From a bacterium (lineage in GTDB: Bacteria; Planctomycetota; Planctomycetia; Planctomycetales; Planctomycetaceae): a DNA stretch of 34,782 nt. Made by a program: the position numbers and the translations under genes. The notes under the pieces were generated by a model. The model was not told the DNA's origin. It saw only the letters and a program-made list of their open reading frames with translations, and did no database searches. Positions 14,812-34,506 of the stretch are shown here, in pieces (within the stretch, counting starts at the first letter, position 1; each line of letters opens with the position of its first letter). The stretch spans positions 1 through 34,782 of the forward strand of contig WGMU01000130.1 in the NCBI GenBank assembly GCA_016124895.1, given 5' to 3'.

Positions 14812-14902
14812 GGGTGGTCGGGTCTCGACTGAGCGTGCGAAGGAAACCCTGGAAAGATGCCATTGGGGTTTTGTGCGTACCTCACTCCAACCCCAGCCAC
14901 CC
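14812..14902. repeat. Two-armed palindromic element, copy 1 (full)
   Basis: The left arm (GGTGGTCGGGTCTCGACTGA..GCGAAGGAAACCC) and right arm (GGGGTTTTGTGCGTACCTCA..CCAACCCCAGCCACC) match, with some decay, the arms of the copies at 19100-19208 and 30629-30744. The spacer is only about 12 bases. It occupies most of the gap between the DUF1549/DUF1553 and DUF1501 genes. Confidence 0.8.
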
Positions 14903-14911
14903 GAAAATTCG

Positions 14912-19068: not shown

Positions 19069-19099
19069 GTACACATTCCAAGGAGAACGGGTTGAACTC

Positions 19100-19208
19100 G
19101 GGTGGCCGGGGTTGGAGCGAGGCAGGAGCGAAACCCCGGTTTGAGTGGCTGTCTTTCCAGAGTCCGGGGCTTCCTTCGCAGGCTCAGTCCAGTCCAGTCC
19201 CGGCCACT
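19100..19208. repeat. Two-armed palindromic element, copy 2 (full)
   Basis: The left arm is GGTGGCCGGGGTTGGAGCGA..GAGCGAAACCCCGG. The right arm is CCGGGGCTTCCTTCGCAGGC..CAGTCCAGTCCCGGCCACT. Each arm is itself a stem-loop. The arm order is opposite to that of the copies at 14812 and 30629, so the whole element is inserted in the other orientation. It fills the gap between the convergent Rrf2 and pduO genes. Confidence 0.9.
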
Positions 19209-26707: not shown

Positions 26708-27127
26708 CGCAGAGCGATCATTTCCTTTTGAACGTAGCGAGTCTCGCTGGAAACCTGGCACACGTCAGGGAGGAGGGCAGAACCAGTTGCTGGTGAGACC
26801 GGCCACCTCCGGTTTCCTGTTTTATGGTCATCCGCGTGAGATAAAGCGGGGTAGCCCGATCGCTTGCGATTGGGTCGCTCAGCGACGGAAGGACTCATCC
26901 TCAGCGAGCAACACCGATGGCGGGTCCAAACGGGAGAGCAGTCACTGATCGGTGGTTAATCGGCGGGTTGACGATGACGAGAAACCAATCTCCTGCCGAT
27001 CTGGTGGCTGCCGTGAATCGAGGGTGATGATGAATTCAACGTCGATTGACAGATTGAATACGGATGGTGAGTTTTCCTGTGCCTGCGGCACCCAGCCGCA
27101 AGCGGTCGGGCCACCCAGTGTCTGCAC
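26708..27127. other. Degenerate region with hairpins, no intact gene
   Basis: None of the open frames here has a family signature, ribosome site or leader. The stretch holds a small hairpin at 26736-26748, a GTAG hairpin at 26851-26874 and two adjacent hairpins at about 27079-27106 (GTGCC-TGC-GGCAC and CCGC-AA-GCGG). It leads directly into the oxoprolinase remnant. Confidence 0.6.
26851..26874 (+). repeat. REP-like GTAG hairpin
   Basis: GTAG is followed by CCCGATCGC-TT-GCGATTGGG, a 9-bp stem with one G-T pair. The 5' GTAG head plus hairpin is the architecture of REP elements mobilised by RAYT transposases. The stem differs from that of the pair at 27433 and 28824. Confidence 0.5.
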
Positions 27128-27436
27128 GAATTCTCAATCCGTCGCGGTTCCGGCGGAGCAGGGCAGCACCGAGGCGGCGACGGCATCGTTCGCCGCATCG
27201 AATTCCTCAAACCGCTGACAGTCTCCCCGCTGACCCAACGCCGAGGCGACTACGCCCCCTTCGGCCTGCAGGACGGAGCCAACGGAGCCATCGGCAACAA
27301 CACCCTGCAACGCGCCGGCAGTGACGAGCCCGAACACCTCGCCGGCCGCGCCCGAGTCGACATCAACGCTGGCGACGTCCTCACCATCGAAACCCCCGGC
27401 GGCGGCGGCTGGGGCAGCGTTGAATCGAATTCGTAG
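27128..27436 (+). pseudogene. 3' remnant of a hydantoinase B/5-oxoprolinase gene
   Basis: In this frame about 102 codons read EFSIRRGSGGAGQHRGGDG, then IEFLKPLTVSPLTQRRGDY, PFGLQDGANGAIGNNTL, and VLTIETPGGGGWGSVESNS before TAG. These are the conserved C-terminal blocks of the HyuB/oxoprolinase family. The intact family is about 500-600 residues as a separate B subunit and about 1,200 when fused. There is a TGA at 27068-27070 in the same frame, no start codon, and no homology further upstream, so only the C-terminus survives. The TAG stop (27434-27436) lies within the GTAG head of the adjoining REP-like repeat. Assignment is by motif recognition; the deleted part is not elsewhere in the window. 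Confidence 0.85.
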
Positions 27437-27466
27437 GCCGGATCAAGCGCAGCGCCGCTCCGGCAA
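27433..27466 (+). repeat. REP-like GTAG hairpin, copy 1
   Basis: GTAGGCCGGATCAAGCGCAG continues as CGCCGCTCCGGCAA. GCCGGA pairs with TCCGGC and the inner bases can pair further. It matches the inverted copy at 28824-28856 at 30 of 34 positions. The start resembles the E. coli REP end (GGCCTAC inverted), but no RAYT transposase gene is in the window. Confidence 0.8.
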
Positions 27467-27590
27467 TGCGTGTGGCCGGAACGTCGTCATTCCACACCTC
27501 AAGGCGGACTGCGGAAAATCTCGCGACGCGATTCATTTTCCTGAGATGTCCGGAAGCTACCGACGATAATAGAGGATGTAAGGGCAGCCG

Positions 27591-27639
27591 TTTTTGTTTG
27601 GCAGTCCCAATTTTCACCCGAATTTACGGGGGTATCCGC
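27591..27639 (+). promoter_or_regulatory. Leader repeat, copy 1
   Basis: TTTTTGTTTGGCAGTCCCAA followed by TTTTCACCCGAATTTACGGG leads into the ATG at 27640. It shares blocks in the same order and spacing with 27881-27931: TTGTTTG, CAATTT, CACCC, ATTTAC, GGG and GCATG. In the ungapped last 34 bases, 24 match. GGGGG may be the ribosome site. Confidence 0.65.
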
Positions 27640-27864
27640 ATGGCTGAGATTTCCAGAGAAACCCGCACCAACGCCTTTCACTGTCCACTCGCCGGAACAG
27701 TGGTCACTTTGTCGCGAGAGTTTCTGCTCATTCCCGGGCGGAGTCAGTGCGTCAGATTTGACTGTTCGATGAAGAATCAATGTGGCGTCGGAACACGTGA
27801 TTCCTGTGGTAATATCGGTTACGACTGGGACGTGTGCGTCCATCCCGACAGCCAAACCAAGTGA
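27640..27864 (+). CDS. Small cysteine-rich protein, probable zinc binder
   Basis: 74 residues, with no recognised family. Six cysteines lie at 15, 37, 42, 48, 56 and 66. The first is in FHCPLAGTVVTLSREF and the rest in QCVRFDCSMKNQCGVGTRDS and WDVCVHP. The spacing, with CPLxG at one end and W.VC.HP at the other, suggests one or two small metal-binding knuckles and a cytoplasmic protein, since there is no signal peptide. The gene begins at an ATG directly after a leader sequence duplicated before the next gene. It has lower GC than its surroundings. It may be paired with the HEPN-like gene 67 bases downstream, but each has its own leader, and no functional link is proven. Confidence 0.6.
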   Translation: MAEISRETRTNAFHCPLAGTVVTLSREFLLIPGRSQCVRFDCSMKNQCGVGTRDSCGNIGYDWDVCVHPDSQTK

Positions 27865-27880
27865 TCCACAGCCGTCATAG

Positions 27881-27931
27881 TTCTTGTTTGTCGCATCCTC
27901 AATTTACACCCACATTTACAAGGGCAATTGC
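27881..27931 (+). promoter_or_regulatory. Leader repeat, copy 2
   Basis: TTCTTGTTTGTCGCATCCTC followed by AATTTACACCCACATTTACA runs into the ATG at 27932. It is a diverged direct repeat of 27591-27639, just 17 bases after the preceding stop. AAGGG may be the ribosome site. Confidence 0.65.
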
Positions 27932-28591
27932 ATGTCGCACGCGACGGATAAAATGATTGAAAACCTCCGCTTTTACGTGAAAGAGCGTCAGCTCGGAATC
28001 GCTGAGAAACTGGCAGAGGACTTCACCAGAGACACACCGCCTTTTAATCACTCTGGGTTCGTCATTCTCTCGATCGTAGCTGCCTATTTTGAGATGATTC
28101 GGCAGTTCGATAAGGGAGAGAGTAGTTATGTGGAGAGGGAAAACGGCAAGGGGTATGACTCAAAGAGTCGAAAGTTCTTCATTGAAGGCTTCAAACTCGT
28201 ATATGACAAAACGGAGCTTAGCGACAAGGAAATCGGGCAGATCTATTCTGTCGTGCGGTGCGGTATGTATCACGGCGGAATGCCGAAAGTTGGGTGTCAT
28301 CTGTCTCGAAACTTCAGGTCAGGCATTCATCTGTGCAAAGGCGAGGTTCATATTAACCCCGCCGAGATGGTTAGGGAGGTCAAAGAGCACTTTGATCGGT
28401 ATATCGCCTCACTCGTTCCAGAATCAGATTTGCTGACGAACTTCGAGAAAATGTGCGAGATCGTTGGACTGGACACCGAGCCTCAGCATGAAACCTGGTG
28501 CGATAAACTCTCTAATGTGACGACGACGAGTTCTAATCCGGCTGACAAAGGGAAAGAGCCCCAGAAGCATCGAACGGAGACGGAGCAGTAA
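27932..28591 (+). CDS. Uncharacterised HEPN-like helical protein
   Basis: 219 residues, mostly helical, with no signal peptide and a disordered Ser/Thr/Lys/Glu-rich tail after about residue 195. The central part reads FVILSIVAAYFEMIRQF, then FFIEGFKLVYDKT, then IYSVVRCGMYHGGMP. Arg109 and His114 form R-X4-H within a helix, the pattern of HEPN ribonucleases and their relatives. The surrounding helix-loop layout also fits. HEPN proteins occur in toxin-antitoxin and abortive-infection systems as well as in non-defence roles. Codon use is AT-rich compared with neighbours: one 60-base line (28081-28140) is 45% GC, against 67% for a line in the adjacent DUF1501 gene. Recent transfer is therefore likely. 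The HEPN assignment is inference from the motif. Confidence 0.6.
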   Translation: MSHATDKMIENLRFYVKERQLGIAEKLAEDFTRDTPPFNHSGFVILSIVAAYFEMIRQFDKGESSYVERENGKGYDSKSRKFFIEGFKLVYDKTELSDKEIGQIYSVVRCGMYHGGMPKVGCHLSRNFRSGIHLCKGEVHINPAEMVREVKEHFDRYIASLVPESDLLTNFEKMCEIVGLDTEPQHETWCDKLSNVTTTSSNPADKGKEPQKHRTETEQ

Positions 28592-28751
28592 TTCGCAGAG
28601 GACTCACGCCGGGTGGCGCCCAGGGTCGGTGATCGAAGTGGTTGAGGCGCGTCGGCGTCACCTCGGCGCGTCTTGGAATGAAGATTTCCCGACTTCAGAC
28701 GTCGTCCTTCGTGCTTCAGGGCGTGCGACCCGGCCACCACGGTGCGTGCTG

Positions 28752-28793
28752 CCGGGGTTTCGGTCGTGCCTCGCTCCAACCACCGGCCACCCT
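28752..28793 (-). repeat. Two-armed palindromic element, half copy
   Basis: CCGGGGTTTCGGTCGTGCCT continues as CGCTCCAACCACCGGCCACC. This is one arm (the GGAGCGAGGC type, inverted) of the element at 19100 and 30629. The partner arm is missing or decayed to a CCGGCCACCACGG-like stretch upstream (28730-28742). Confidence 0.65.
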
Positions 28794-28823
28794 GTGAACT
28801 GCCCTATTCGCTCACGTTGCGGA

Positions 28824-28856
28824 TTGCCGGAACGGCGCTTCGCTTGGTCGGCCTAC
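28824..28856 (-). repeat. REP-like GTAG hairpin, copy 2 (inverted)
   Basis: On the - strand this reads GTAGGCCGACCAAGCGAAGC then GCCGTTCCGGCAA, 30 of 34 positions identical to copy 1. Its GTAG head begins 2 bases after the DUF1501 stop codon. Together with copy 1 it brackets the two orphan genes in inverted orientation. Confidence 0.8.
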
Positions 28857-28858
28857 GA

Positions 28859-30307
28859 TCACGCGAGGATGTCCTGCAGGACTTCGCCGGCGACGTCGGT
28901 CAGGCGGAAGTCGCGGCCGTTGAAGCGGTAGGTCAGGTCGGTGTGGCGGATGCCCATCTGGTGCAGCACCGTCGCATGAATGTCATGCACGTTGACGCGG
29001 TTCTCGACGGACTTGTAGCCAAACTCGTCTGACGCTCCATACTGCGTGCCTCCCTTGAAGCCGCCGCCGGCGAACCAGGTGGTGAAGGCGTTCGGGTTGT
29101 GGTCTCGGCCGCCGGAACCCTGCGAGTCTGACGTGCGACCGAATTCACCGCCGTAGATGACGATCGTGTCGTCGAACAGGCCGCGTTGTTTCAGGTCGGC
29201 CAGCAGAGCGCCGGTCGGCTGGTCGACAGTTGCGCCGCAGGCTCGGTGGTTGCCGTTGATGTCGTTGTGGCCGTCCCACGGGACGTCGCTGACCGCGCCA
29301 CCCGGAGTGTTCGGACACGAGGCGAAGATCTGGACGAACCGAACGCCGCGTTCGACGAGCCGGCGAGCGATCAGGCACTGGCGGCCATAGTCTTTCGATT
29401 CGTTGCGGTTCAGGCCGTAGGCCTCCTGAATGTGCTCAGGTTCCTGCGACAGGTCGAAGGCTTCAGGAGCGGCTGTCTGCATTCGGTAGGCGAGTTCAAA
29501 CGACTCCAGCCGGGCGTTGAGGTCGCGGTCGAAGGGACGCTTCTCCGCGTGCTTCGCGTTGGCCGAGTTGAGAACGTCGAGCAGCGAGCGTTGCTGGCCG
29601 TCGGTCAGCTCGCCGGGCCGGGCGAGGTTGTCGATCGGTGTGCCGCTGCGTGGATCGAGTGACGTTGCCTGGTAGACCGACGGCAGGAAGCCGGATGACC
29701 AGATGGGATCACCGCCGCGCGGTTTCGTACCGTGCATGACGACGTAGGCTGGCAGGTTGGCGTTCTCACTGCCCAGACCGTACGTCAGCCACGAACCCAT
29801 GCTCGGAAAGCCCTGGCGGATCATGCCCGAGTTGAACTCAAGCATTGCCGGTGTGTGATTGTTCGACTGCGAGTAGCACGAGTAGACGAACGCGATGTCG
29901 TCAACGTGCTTCGAGATTTCTGGGAAGATTTCCGACGTCCACGCACCGGATTCGCCGTGCTGAGTCCACTTGAACGGCGACTTCAGGCAGTTGCCGCTGG
30001 TCGTGAAGAAGCCGGTCTTCGGATCGGCTCCGGCGAGCGGCGTGCCGTCGCGTTTCTGCAGCTCCGGCTTGTAATCGAACGTGTCGACCTGGGAGGGGCT
30101 TCCGGTCTGAAAGAGCCAGATTACGGCCTTCGCCTTCGGTGCGAACTGCGAGGGCTTTTCAGCCAGCGGATTCGACGGCTTTGAGTCAGCAGCGAGGACG
30201 CCTTCCTGGTGCAGCAGGCTGGTCAGCGCGAGCGATCCGCAACCGAGGCCGGCCTTCTGCAGGAAGTCACGGCGGGAAGACGAGGTTTCAAAGGCGTGAT
30301 GTGTCAT
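28859..30307 (-). CDS. DUF1501 family Tat-exported protein (second copy)
   Basis: 482 residues. The Tat motif SSRRDFLQKAGLGCGSLALT starts at residue 10. Family blocks are AVIWLFQTGSPSQVDTFDYK, YSCYSQSNNHTPAMLEFNSG, IWSSGFLPSVYQAT, GRQCLIARRLVERGVRFVQI, DVPWDGHNDI, DDTIVIYGGEFGRT and GRDHNPNAFTTWFAGGG. This is the longer DUF1501 subtype. It is clearly diverged from the 447-residue copy at 13444 and is no recent duplicate. It lies downstream of the 1144-residue DUF1549 gene on the same strand, across a 453-base gap filled with palindromic repeats. The likely role is a Tat-exported hydrolase-fold partner of that protein. Confidence 0.95.
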   Translation of the reverse strand: MTHHAFETSSSRRDFLQKAGLGCGSLALTSLLHQEGVLAADSKPSNPLAEKPSQFAPKAKAVIWLFQTGSPSQVDTFDYKPELQKRDGTPLAGADPKTGFFTTSGNCLKSPFKWTQHGESGAWTSEIFPEISKHVDDIAFVYSCYSQSNNHTPAMLEFNSGMIRQGFPSMGSWLTYGLGSENANLPAYVVMHGTKPRGGDPIWSSGFLPSVYQATSLDPRSGTPIDNLARPGELTDGQQRSLLDVLNSANAKHAEKRPFDRDLNARLESFELAYRMQTAAPEAFDLSQEPEHIQEAYGLNRNESKDYGRQCLIARRLVERGVRFVQIFASCPNTPGGAVSDVPWDGHNDINGNHRACGATVDQPTGALLADLKQRGLFDDTIVIYGGEFGRTSDSQGSGGRDHNPNAFTTWFAGGGFKGGTQYGASDEFGYKSVENRVNVHDIHATVLHQMGIRHTDLTYRFNGRDFRLTDVAGEVLQDILA

Positions 30308-30628: not shown

Positions 30629-30744
30629 GGGCGGCCGGGGCTGGACTGAGCCTGCGAAGGAAGCCCCGGCACTGTTTGAGTCTGGTTTTGGTTGTGTTCA
30701 GGTTCCGGGGCTTCGCTCGTGCCTCGCTCCAGCCCCGGCCACCC
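30629..30744. repeat. Two-armed palindromic element, copy 3 (full)
   Basis: The left arm contains CCGGGGCT-loop-AGCCCCGG with loop GGACTGAGCCTGCGAAGGA. The right arm has the same 8-bp stem and the loop TCGCTCGTGCCTCGCTCC. This is the best-preserved copy, with a 33-base spacer. It ends 17 bases after (downstream of) the stop of the 1144-residue DUF1549 gene. Confidence 0.9.
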
Positions 30745-30760
30745 GTCAGGTTGCTTTGTC

Positions 30761-33700
30761 TTAATCGACGTAAACGAACTCGTTCGTGCATAGGAGCAGG
30801 TGGCAGAAGTCGCGGAAGGCGAGGGTTTCGGCGTTGGCGTCTCCGCCTCGCTGGGATTTCTGCTGCCCGATGAATTCGGCCATTGAAGTGCGTTCGGCAT
30901 CCGTTGCCGGGCGGCTCAGGGCGAACTGGTAGGCCTGGTTGATTGCCTGATCGAGCGGGATGTCGGCAGCGGGTCCGACTCGCGCAGCGAGCTTGCCGGC
31001 CAGGTCGCGAACGATCGGCGAGTTCAGCAACGCGAGAGCCTGCGGCGCGACAGTGCTTTCTTCGCGGGAGCCGATGGCCTGCATCGTGCCGGGGGCGTCG
31101 AACAGTTGCAGCAGCGGGATGAGCTGGCTGCGTTTGACGGTGAAGTAGATGCTGCGTCGCGTGCTGCGCTGGTCGAGCGTGCCTTTGCCGAACTGCGTGC
31201 GATCGAGCGTTCCGCTCACGGCGAGCAGTTCGTCGCGGATGATTTCCGCTTCCAGTCGCCGGGACGCTCGTCGCCACAGCAGCAGGTTCTCGGGGTCGTG
31301 CTGTCGTCCGCTGTCGGTGACCTCGCCGGCCTGCATGTAGACAGCACTGGTCATGATCAGCTTGTGGATCGGCTTGAGCTTCCACTCCTGGCGGATCAGT
31401 TCGGCGGCCAGCCAGTCGAGCAGTTCCGGATGCGATGGCTCTTCGCCGCTGTTCCCGAAGTCGCTGGGCGTCGCCACGATGCCTCGTCCGAAGTGGTGGT
31501 GCCACAACCGGTTGACGATGACGCGAGCCAGCAGTTGGCCGCTGCCGTATTCGACGTCGGTCAGCCAGTCGGTCAGGCCCAGACGTCCGGCTCGCTGCTG
31601 TTGGGGGTTGGCGGGATCGGCGAGCCAGCGTTTCTCCTGATTCTCGCCCGTCATCAGCACCTGCAGAAAGCCGGGCTGAGCTTCGTCGAGTTTGTTGTCC
31701 GAGTTGCCTCGCCGCAGGTGGTAGACCTTGTAGGTGTCCTCGCCGAACTGGTACGTCGAGCCGCGAACTCGGGCGGCGAAGACGTTGGTCAGATCGGGCT
31801 TTGGCGTTTCGGTGTCGTCACGAAGCACGGTCTGGTTCAGGTGCAGCCATTCGAGGTCGAAGCCGCGATACCACTCGGACAGCCGGTTCTTCTGCGGATC
31901 GTTCCGCTGATCGGCGGCGACTTTGAGAATCGCGGTGACATCATCGGGCGTCTGTGCTGCCGAGGCCGCGAAGTAAAAGCCGGTCTTGCCGCCGCCGTTG
32001 ACGATCTTCATCAGAATCTCGTTGCGGCCTTTGGCGAGCTGGATCGTGACGTTCTCCTGGCCGGCGGCCGCGGTGTTGCGACCGACCTTCTTCGAGAGAA
32101 CCTCGCGACCATTGACCCACAGCTTGATGCCGTCGTCGCTGCCCAGTGACAGCGCGAGCACTCGCGGCTGGTCGACGTCGACGGTGCGGAACAGGTAGTT
32201 CGCGCAGTTCGTGCCCGTCAGGTGGTCGTTGTACGCGGTGCCGTCTTTCCAGTCGGGCTGCTCGGCCCACTTGAGCTTGCCGTCTTCAAACGTCTGATCG
32301 AGTCGCGTGTCGAGTTCCGGCGGAAAGACCTGGTCGAAGGCGACATCGAAGTTCGCGGCGGCGAACGGGCCGACGTGGTGCCAGGCGGCGAACCCCGGAA
32401 CGTCGCCGGACTGCACCGGAGTCGCCGCGAAGTAGAAGCCCGACGGGCCGCCGCCGTTGACGATCTTCATCAGCAGTTCGTTGCGGCCGGGCTTCAGCTT
32501 GACCTGCACGGTGTCCTGTCCGGCGGCGACGTCTCCGGCGGTCAGATTCGAGAGCACGGACTCGCCGTTGACCCAGACTTTGATCGCGTCGTCGCGGCCC
32601 AGCGACAGCGAGACCGTCTGCTCCTGCTGCGTCTCGATCGTGCGGAACAGGTAGTTGGCCGCGTTGTCGGTCGAGAACGGGTTGTGAATCGTGGCGTCGG
32701 CCCATTCGGGGTGCGGTGTCCACTTGAGCTTGCCGTCCTCGTAGGTCGCCGCCAGATCGACGGACGCTTCCGGAGCGAACGTCTGCTCGAAAGCCTTTTC
32801 AAAGCTCTCGGCTTTGAACGGCCCGACGTGCTGCCACTCGCTGAGTTTCAGCGGCGAGGTCTGCGTTGGCGTCTCCGGCTGCAGTTCCGCCAGCCAGGCG
32901 TTGAGAGCTTCGGGCAACTGCTGCTGTTCGTACTCGGTGCGGGCGGCGACCAGCGGTGCGTGAGCGGCGTCGAAGGCGGCCTTGTCGGCGGCGAACTTCT
33001 CCGGCTGCATGTTGATGCCGGTGTCGGAGAAGCCGACGTCCGCGAAGTTCGAGATCAGCCGGTAGTAATCGAACTGCGGCAGCGGATCGAACTTGTGGCT
33101 GTGGCAGCGGCTGCAGCCGACGGTCATGCCGAGCAGCGAGGTGCCCAGCGTGCTGGCGATATCGTCGAGCTGTTCGTAGCGGCTGCGTTCGCGTTCCTTC
33201 TGAGTCTGCTGCGTGGTGTACGGGCCGGCGACGAGGAACCCGGTCGCGGCGATCCGGTCAACGGCCGTGCGAGCTTCGTCGGTCGTCTTGACGTTGGCGT
33301 CGGTCAGCAGGTCGCCCGCCAGCTGCAGGCGGACGAACTCGTCATACGGCATGTCCGCATTCAACGCCCGGATGACGAAGTCGCGGTAGTGCCAGGCGTT
33401 CGGGCGGTCGCCGTCGAAGGCGTACCCGTTGCTCTCGGCGAAGCGGACGATGTCCAGCCAGTGGCGAGCCCAGCGTTCGCCGTAATGCTCGCTCTGCAGC
33501 AGGCGGTCGATCAGAGCGGCGTAGGCGGCCGCGGCGTCAGTCTCGTAGTCGGCGACAAATCGCTCGACATCGTCCGGTTCCGGCGGCAGGCCGATCAGAT
33601 CGAAATACGCGCGGCGGATGAGCGTTCGCGGCCCGGCGATCGCATTCGGAGTGACTCCGGCGGCTTCCTGTCGGTGGCGGATGTAGTTGTCGATCGGCGT

Positions 33701-34195
33701 CCGCAGCCAGGGCGAGTCAGCGACCTGCGGCGGCGGTGAGAGATTCAGCGGCTGAAACGACCAGTGCTCACGCCCGGCTTCGATATCGATCTCCGTGGTC
33801 GCGACGACGGCGGTCCCTTCACGCGGATCGGGGGCTCCCATTTCGATCCACTTGACGAAGTGCCCGATGATCTCGTCCGGCAGCTTGCCGGCAGGCGGCA
33901 TCTTGAAGCTGTCCTGCTTGAGCGCCGAAATGAGCAGACTCTCGCCCGGCTTCCCCGGCACCACCGCCGCCCCGCTCTCGCCCCCTTTGCGGCTGCCCTC
34001 GCGCGAATCGAGGAACAGATTGCCCTTGAGCTTCTTCTTTGTGACGGCCTCGGCGGAATGGCACTCGTAACAGTGCTTCACCAGCATCGGGCGAATCTTC
34101 GCCTCAAAGAAGTCGAGCCCCTTGCGATCCGTCTCAGCAGCGCTGGCCGCTGAGGTGCTGATAAGAAGAGCCAGTGCAATCAACAGTCTGGTCAT
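30761..34195 (-). CDS. DUF1549/DUF1553 cytochrome-type protein with N-terminal PSCyt1 domain and an internal tandem duplication
   Basis: 1144 residues, longer than is usual for the family. The signal peptide is MTRLLIALALLISTSAASAA. The PSCyt1-type heme motif Cys42-YE-Cys45-His46 lies in a short cytochrome-like domain that ends in KMPPAGKLPDEIIGHFVKWI. DUF1549 is about 165-385, with a second heme motif, Cys361-SR-Cys364-His365. Then come two tandem ~140-residue modules (about 453-593 and 604-745). They share WQHVGPFKAESFEKAFEQTF versus WHHVGPFAAANFDVAFDQVF, ANYLFRT, KVWVNGESVLS versus KLWVNGREVLS, and LMKIVNGGG. DUF1553 follows at about 850-1120 (VIVNRLWHHHFGRGIVATPS; APQALALLNSPIVRDLA). First gene of an operon with DUF1501, followed by a repeat-filled gap. 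The substrate is unknown. Confidence 0.95.
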   Translation of the reverse strand: MTRLLIALALLISTSAASAAETDRKGLDFFEAKIRPMLVKHCYECHSAEAVTKKKLKGNLFLDSREGSRKGGESGAAVVPGKPGESLLISALKQDSFKMPPAGKLPDEIIGHFVKWIEMGAPDPREGTAVVATTEIDIEAGREHWSFQPLNLSPPPQVADSPWLRTPIDNYIRHRQEAAGVTPNAIAGPRTLIRRAYFDLIGLPPEPDDVERFVADYETDAAAAYAALIDRLLQSEHYGERWARHWLDIVRFAESNGYAFDGDRPNAWHYRDFVIRALNADMPYDEFVRLQLAGDLLTDANVKTTDEARTAVDRIAATGFLVAGPYTTQQTQKERERSRYEQLDDIASTLGTSLLGMTVGCSRCHSHKFDPLPQFDYYRLISNFADVGFSDTGINMQPEKFAADKAAFDAAHAPLVAARTEYEQQQLPEALNAWLAELQPETPTQTSPLKLSEWQHVGPFKAESFEKAFEQTFAPEASVDLAATYEDGKLKWTPHPEWADATIHNPFSTDNAANYLFRTIETQQEQTVSLSLGRDDAIKVWVNGESVLSNLTAGDVAAGQDTVQVKLKPGRNELLMKIVNGGGPSGFYFAATPVQSGDVPGFAAWHHVGPFAAANFDVAFDQVFPPELDTRLDQTFEDGKLKWAEQPDWKDGTAYNDHLTGTNCANYLFRTVDVDQPRVLALSLGSDDGIKLWVNGREVLSKKVGRNTAAAGQENVTIQLAKGRNEILMKIVNGGGKTGFYFAASAAQTPDDVTAILKVAADQRNDPQKNRLSEWYRGFDLEWLHLNQTVLRDDTETPKPDLTNVFAARVRGSTYQFGEDTYKVYHLRRGNSDNKLDEAQPGFLQVLMTGENQEKRWLADPANPQQQRAGRLGLTDWLTDVEYGSGQLLARVIVNRLWHHHFGRGIVATPSDFGNSGEEPSHPELLDWLAAELIRQEWKLKPIHKLIMTSAVYMQAGEVTDSGRQHDPENLLLWRRASRRLEAEIIRDELLAVSGTLDRTQFGKGTLDQRSTRRSIYFTVKRSQLIPLLQLFDAPGTMQAIGSREESTVAPQALALLNSPIVRDLAGKLAARVGPAADIPLDQAINQAYQFALSRPATDAERTSMAEFIGQQKSQRGGDANAETLAFRDFCHLLLCTNEFVYVD

Positions 34196-34506
34196 GAGGC
34201 GTTCCGTGAGAAAATTCGTCCGTTCGGCAATGCCGCCGTGTCGTCAGGAGTGAAGCCCGCGATGATGACAAACAGCCGCCCTCGATGCAAGGCAGCCACG
34301 CGTGGAGAGTCGAACCAGGGTGGCCGTGGCTGGACTGAGCCCGCGAAGGAAGCCCGGGTGTCTGAAGGGATTTGGGCTTAGAGGTGAAGACTTGATTTCG
34401 AGACATTCTCGACAACACTGCGGACATTCGTGGCCTGTGTAATCGACGCAGCCGTCGTTAGGTACGCCGATCGTAAATAACTCCGTGACCGCTTAAGAGT
34501 AGTCGT
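34196..34506. other. Intergenic region with a half repeat element
   Basis: This 311-base divergent region should carry the promoter of the DUF1549 operon, but I cannot place it. At 34318-34360 is one arm of the two-armed element (GGTGGCCGTGGCTGGACTGA..GCGAAGGAAGCCCGGGTG), with no partner arm. No other gene is apparent. Confidence 0.65.
34318..34360 (+). repeat. Two-armed palindromic element, single arm
   Basis: This is the TGGACTGAGCC..GCGAAGGAAG arm found at 30629, with the GGTGGCC start. The sequence after it does not contain the second arm. Confidence 0.7.

Follow-up and report, generated by a model that had tools for sequence, protein, structure and literature searches.

The window, a 34,782-nt stretch of planctomycete DNA, contains two REP-like hairpins that face each other across two open reading frames, between a remnant of a hydantoinase B gene and a DUF1501 gene whose 3′ ends converge. 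The features of this part of the window are as follows.

27182–27436, + strand: C-terminal remnant of hydantoinase B (Pfam PF02538, E 2.1e-16, profile positions 439–518)
27433–27465, + strand: left REP arm, GTAG head at 27433, 56 bits with model R1; its exact 22-nt head also occurs in five other places in the genome
27475–27488, + strand: stump of the left arm's partner, the inner 14 nt of a long-type arm (truncated REPIN)
27640–27864, + strand: 74-aa ORF of doubtful status
27932–28591, + strand: 219-aa gene, GC 0.489, possible HEPN-type RNase
28752–28792, + strand: half-copy of another palindromic repeat (families D5 and I9), lying just within the interval at its right end
28825–28856, − strand: right REP arm, head at 28856, 44.5 bits with R1
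28859–30307, − strand: DUF1501 gene (Pfam PF07394, E 8.7e-147)

The sequence at 27433–27466 aligns with the complement of 28824–28856 at 30 identities in 34 columns (one gap, three mismatches), with GTAG outermost in both arms and the arms facing inward across a spacing of 1359 nt. The TAG of the left arm (27434–27436) is the stop codon of the hydantoinase B remnant frame, and there are two bases (28857–28858) between the DUF1501 stop (28859–28861) and the right head, towards which the DUF1501 gene runs. An earlier note, made from the letters of this DNA, had described the 30-of-34 match, the facing orientation and the placement of both GTAG heads at stops; its observation of inward REP-like arms at two gene ends is correct on each of these points.

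A 22-nt head pattern allowing up to 3 mismatches matched the 8,134,610-base genome 66 times, compared with a single match for the reversed control, indicating that the repeat in the window is not a product of chance. Using a covariance model built from 38 arms, we found at least 139 REP arms in the 8.13-Mb genome (E up to 1; 150 candidates scored), each 31–33 nt long or, in a long type, 39 nt. The consensus has 7 base pairs, but the three flanked stretches, when folded by themselves, showed no clear gain in stability over shuffled sequences (z −1.29, 0.83 and −0.16). Grouping the listed arms with a 3-kb limit gives 78 clusters, of which 22 consist of one arm. Close inverted doublets are the main form: 53 convergent pairs with GTAG on the outside lie less than 200 nt apart, 50 of these at 13–50 nt, which is the layout of a REPIN or head-head dimer, and 31 of the 139 listed arms are unpaired. 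Among 21 genomes searched, the family is present in four, namely the window's own genome (G000) and three others, G001 (same genus), G007 and G011, with 117, 81 and 38 arms, respectively, in fuller lists for the latter three. In arm length, unpaired GTAG head and high copy number, the family fits GTAG REPs, which are repeats of 20–40 bp.

The two arms in the window do not form a compact doublet of this kind, being 1359 nt apart and the left one retaining a trace of a partner of its own. Nine nucleotides after the left arm, positions 27475–27488 match exactly, over 14 nt, the partner arms of compact REPINs; 30 shuffles reached at most 10 nt, and the next-longest match was 12 nt (26 arms tested). 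On the inner side of the right arm, the adjoining 60 nt hold no partner match that reaches 8 nt. Because the left arm is followed by the stump of its own partner, the right arm is, from the sequence, probably not its other half, and the stump together with the partnerless right arm makes the window pair most simply two damaged REPINs.

To place the heads relative to genes, we used stops called by a crude codon-usage caller trained on long frames. Of 133 outer heads, 51 lay at −4 to +20 nt of a called coding stop, as did at least one outer head at 45 of the 78 REP loci, and in 14 of the 133 the head itself supplied the TAG stop. Coding stops were hit by 161 of 8400 random points, by 145 of 4877 random GTAG/GCAG words and, in a stricter control, by 593 of 11040 random non-coding points (non-coding DNA is ~15% of the 639-kb sample). 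REP heads of this family thus favour coding stops. With 51 of 133 heads at stops, this preference leaves most heads unexplained. The earlier note had held that REPs sitting at most gene ends, with no tie to cargo genes, would speak against a mobile island; the concentration at stops goes part of the way, but the other 82 heads lie away from any stop seen by the crude caller.

This family resembles, by description rather than by comparison with the 24 GTAG family sequences, the GTAG REPs of Di Nocera et al. 2013 (PMC3733652). These have an unpaired GTAG head and a short palindrome, form head-head dimers mostly 20–100 bp apart, sit behind coding regions and can supply the TAG stop from the head, and Planctomycetes are named among their hosts. 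Head, dimers, gene-end location and TAG supply are all shared, and the consensus pairing here would make a short palindrome as well, whereas the 1359 nt between the two arms in the window depart from that description. A position near the stop codon is likewise shared with E. coli REPs, for which PMC12306157, citing Liang 2015, gives a distance of up to ~15 nt. According to Bertels and Rainey 2011 (PMC3116915), REPINs are dominated by inverted doublets, and singlets look like remnants, DNA insertion being one stated route to them. The present family is similar in both respects, but differs in that no RAYT closely flanked by these REPs was found and in that the two arms in the window stand far apart instead of forming a compact doublet.

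The search for a RAYT transposase that the earlier note had proposed did return such genes, although REPs of this GTAG family do not closely flank any of them. The genome has eight Y1 transposase matches; those on contigs C52 (161.8 bits) and C10 (88.0 bits) score above the NCBIfam threshold for REP-associated tyrosine transposase, and one on C146, whose gene is at a contig end, falls below it (67.2 bits). The clear REP closest to a RAYT is that on C52, at a distance of ~1.6 kb; on C182, a weak REP match of 17.6 bits occurs near an IS200-type gene. By analogy with the REPIN literature (PMC3116915), the REPs here would owe their mobility to a RAYT.

The interval between the arms has a GC content of 0.528, and only 0.51% of 5478 windows of the same length are as low (sample of 639 kb of own-genome DNA around REPs, the island itself included), in agreement with the lower GC that the earlier note had ascribed to the enclosed genes. 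That note had called both genes orphans, which holds for the 74-aa ORF, with no family in Pfam, PADLOC or NCBIfam and no relative in the fetched loci or viral contigs, but not for the 219-aa protein, which belongs to a real family with 52–53% relatives in two planctomycete MAGs. These relatives, like the gene content, point to a planctomycete as the source of the window. The 219-aa gene is present in one copy in its own genome and was absent from all 58 other genomes searched; its protein gave no match in Pfam, PADLOC or NCBIfam and nothing in a plasmid search. HEPN proteins, of which AbiV is one, are marked by the motif Rx4-6H, and the 219-aa protein has such a motif (R109-x4-H114, here R109-CGMY-H114), invariant in all three sequences, that is, the protein and its two relatives. 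The best of five structural models (three input sequences) had a pLDDT of 75.7 and a pTM of 0.72, the other four averaging 41 to 69. AbiV was the first VIA row for the best model (Z 6.7, rmsd 3.7, 122 aligned), at a Z within reach of unrelated helical models; Csm6 stood lower in the list (Z 4.0), and a Foldseek search of the PDB gave nothing significant (best E 0.14). The motif and the AbiV row make a HEPN-type RNase no more than a fair guess; a difference from AbiV and HEPN-type proteins is that no Pfam, NCBIfam or PADLOC family is matched. In a Gimesia MAG, two small ORFs (L040:1360-2328), the first without a Pfam match and the second with HTH_3, adjoin the 219-aa relative and look like a toxin-antitoxin pair.

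We then compared the gene ends on either side with those of relatives. The DUF1501 gene adjoins a large gene at 30761–34195, which we take to be PSD1-like, and the same pair occurs in G007. DNA matches to the DUF1501 gene (E ≤ 1e-150) were found in 22 other genomes out of 149 searched, and for 13 of these we inspected 3′ flanks of ~0.1 to 12.7 kb. In all 13, the DNA downstream of the gene lacks REPs, the hydantoinase remnant, both the 74-aa and the 219-aa frame and the left-hand genes of the window, indicating that the end of the DUF1501 gene is a variable place. The comparison with relatives lacking the island that the earlier note had suggested therefore yielded no matching empty site in these flanks. 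On the other side, positions 27110–27415 align with the 3′ end of a full hydantoinase gene on contig C62 of the same genome, at 85.7% identity across 308 nt. This partial duplicate of the hydantoinase 3′ end (window 27110–27436 and L076:5633-5943) has a REP 3′ of both copies, directly after it in the window and ~1 kb away on C62. In the stretches fetched from G001, G007 and G011, the DNA 3′ of the full hydantoinase gene has nothing in common with the window or C62 and holds no REP.

Long-spaced REP pairs are not in general more frequent than expected. Across the four genomes, 6 cases of REP loci 200–3000 nt apart were observed at E < 0.05, a threshold that leaves out the weak-match pairs on C148 and C144, against 5.3 expected from random placement with each genome treated as one stretch rather than as contigs (probability of at least 6, 0.43). 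Of the six, one in G000 and one in G001 are similarly spaced: in each, two complete REPINs stand ~1.8 kb apart (G000:C135:33139-35119 and G001:C816:2470-4517), and the two cases may be orthologous. Convergent pairs of singlets 200–3000 nt apart, a class picked post hoc, numbered 3 against 0.18 expected (P 0.0007): the window pair (1359 nt), one on C62 (2066 nt) and one in G011 (1883 nt). The excess persists with half (P 0.005) or a quarter (P 0.03) of the sequence taken as available, settings that predict 10 and 20 close REP loci, respectively, against the 6 seen. We regard it as a modest statistical oddity and a residual puzzle.

The C62 pair (L076:7001-9138, equal to G000:C62:87926-90063) has a right head that forms the TAG stop of the next gene. 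It encloses DNA with a GC of 0.534, among the lowest 0.44% of 4985 windows, so that both singlet-pair intervals of this genome fall in the lowest ~0.5% of the 639-kb sample. The C62 interval encodes a 651-aa AAA_15 protein with an OLD-like TOPRIM match below cut-off and a resemblance to the AriA and GajA models; both intervals thus carry defence-type genes, tentatively so for the 219-aa gene in the window. A G011 orthologue (65%) of the gene to the right of the C62 pair has no REP at its stop by eye in the stretch inspected, and the model search found none on that contig. In the G011 pair (G011:C54:18454-20402, equal to L150:3955-5903), the left head provides the preceding gene with its stop codon. 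The DNA inside this pair has a GC usual for its surroundings and encodes an esterase and a truA-like tRNA pseudouridine synthase; it is bordered by a DUF4147/MOFRL gene on one side and an argininosuccinate-lyase-type gene on the other. Lyase and synthase are neighbours in one of 11 other synthase loci examined, in G004, a genome with no REP of this GTAG kind. Given the ordinary enclosed genes and a lyase neighbour kept in a REP-free genome, the most fitting interpretation of the G011 pair is that two REPs were inserted next to ordinary genes.

We consider it likely that the two REP arms in the window are remnants of separate elements, each at a gene end, that the gene between them was acquired, and that their flanking of this gene is a coincidence rather than the mark of a transposition unit. 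This is the second of two readings in the earlier note, that REPs settle at gene ends and flank genes by chance, and it gains from the proportion of loci with a head at a stop, from the heads that supply TAG and from the G011 pair. The GTAG REP/REPIN family would spread through the genome, presumably copied by a RAYT transposase, favouring places beside stops. The left hairpin would be a REPIN whose second arm was cut after 14 nt and the right hairpin a singlet behind DUF1501, and the low-GC 219-aa gene, a possible HEPN RNase, may have entered this same tolerant stretch by horizontal transfer, at a point where two gene ends converge and where relatives, too, appear to differ. The flanking would then reflect coincidence together with a shared preference for such stretches, and if the hairpins have a role today, it would be the one that gene-end REPs have in general, in mRNA 3′ ends or translation.

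Foreign DNA carrying the 219-aa gene could instead have been inserted between the two arms of a single REPIN at convergent gene ends, leaving them 1.36 kb apart. The arms are oriented as in the 53 compact pairs, both heads are at stops, the GC inside is low and convergent singlet pairs are in excess, all of which speaks for this origin. We nevertheless think it unlikely, because the 14-nt stump of a long-type partner lies 9 nt from the left arm, so that the right arm is not its mate unless an arm was rearranged, and because the G011 pair encloses ordinary genes. The types of the C62 arms (i/ii) are also rarely paired in compact REPINs (2 of 53), and those of the window (A/ii) are paired in 4 of 53; arm type as proof against a common origin was dropped, since with these four cases type alone is undecisive. 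A recombination or deletion between REPs might have joined a hydantoinase 3′ end and truncated REPIN to the DUF1501 end, damaging the inner arms. Such an event would account for the partial duplicate of the C62 gene, which also has a REP ~1 kb downstream, for inner arms that are damaged or missing and for the downstream neighbourhoods of the 13 DUF1501 relatives, which are unlike the window. It is improbable in our estimate, as the C62 segment between the gene and the REP has no match in the window and no junction or target duplication was identified.

The other reading in the earlier note, an island that moved between REP sites, could take the form of a mobile cassette whose ends are REP arms by which a RAYT moves defence-type genes. 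One genome does hold two REP-bracketed low-GC loci, one with the possible HEPN gene and one with an AAA/OLD-TOPRIM-like ATPase, as well as RAYT genes, and the over-representation of convergent singlet pairs leaves movement of an island some probability. Against movement of this kind, the search for the island between other REP pairs, as the note had advised, placed the 219-aa gene at one site only, and it is missing from the 58 other genomes; the stump beside the left arm comes from another partner, these REPs were not found close on either side of any RAYT gene and the same geometry surrounds ordinary genes in G011. The island reading is accordingly unsupported, and we judge a REP-bounded cassette very improbable. 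More loosely, single defence-type genes might land or be exchanged at REP arms located at convergent gene ends in this planctomycete lineage, candidates being the HEPN RNase candidate in the window and the AAA/OLD-like ATPase on C62, with REPINs seeding small defence islands; this we put forward as a long shot.

On balance, the arrangement in the window is largely ordinary, and the evidence favours coincidence over a mobile cassette. The analysis describes, in a planctomycete, a GTAG REP/REPIN population that is restricted to its lineage and has the head-supplied stop known from other bacteria, and it illustrates that a foreign-looking gene can lie between inverted REPs without belonging to a mobile unit. 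Should an excess of singlet pairs around defence-type genes hold in more genomes, REPINs would become candidate insertion hot spots for small defence genes.

The window also contains a second, longer palindromic repeat family, of the CCGGGGCTTC type, at 14812–14903, 19099–19195, 28752–28792, 30629–30745 and 34318–34358. Twelve loci of this type occur in the 639-kb own-genome sample, five of them inside the 34.8-kb window, and on contig C125 one such repeat follows a REP singlet by ~25 nt.
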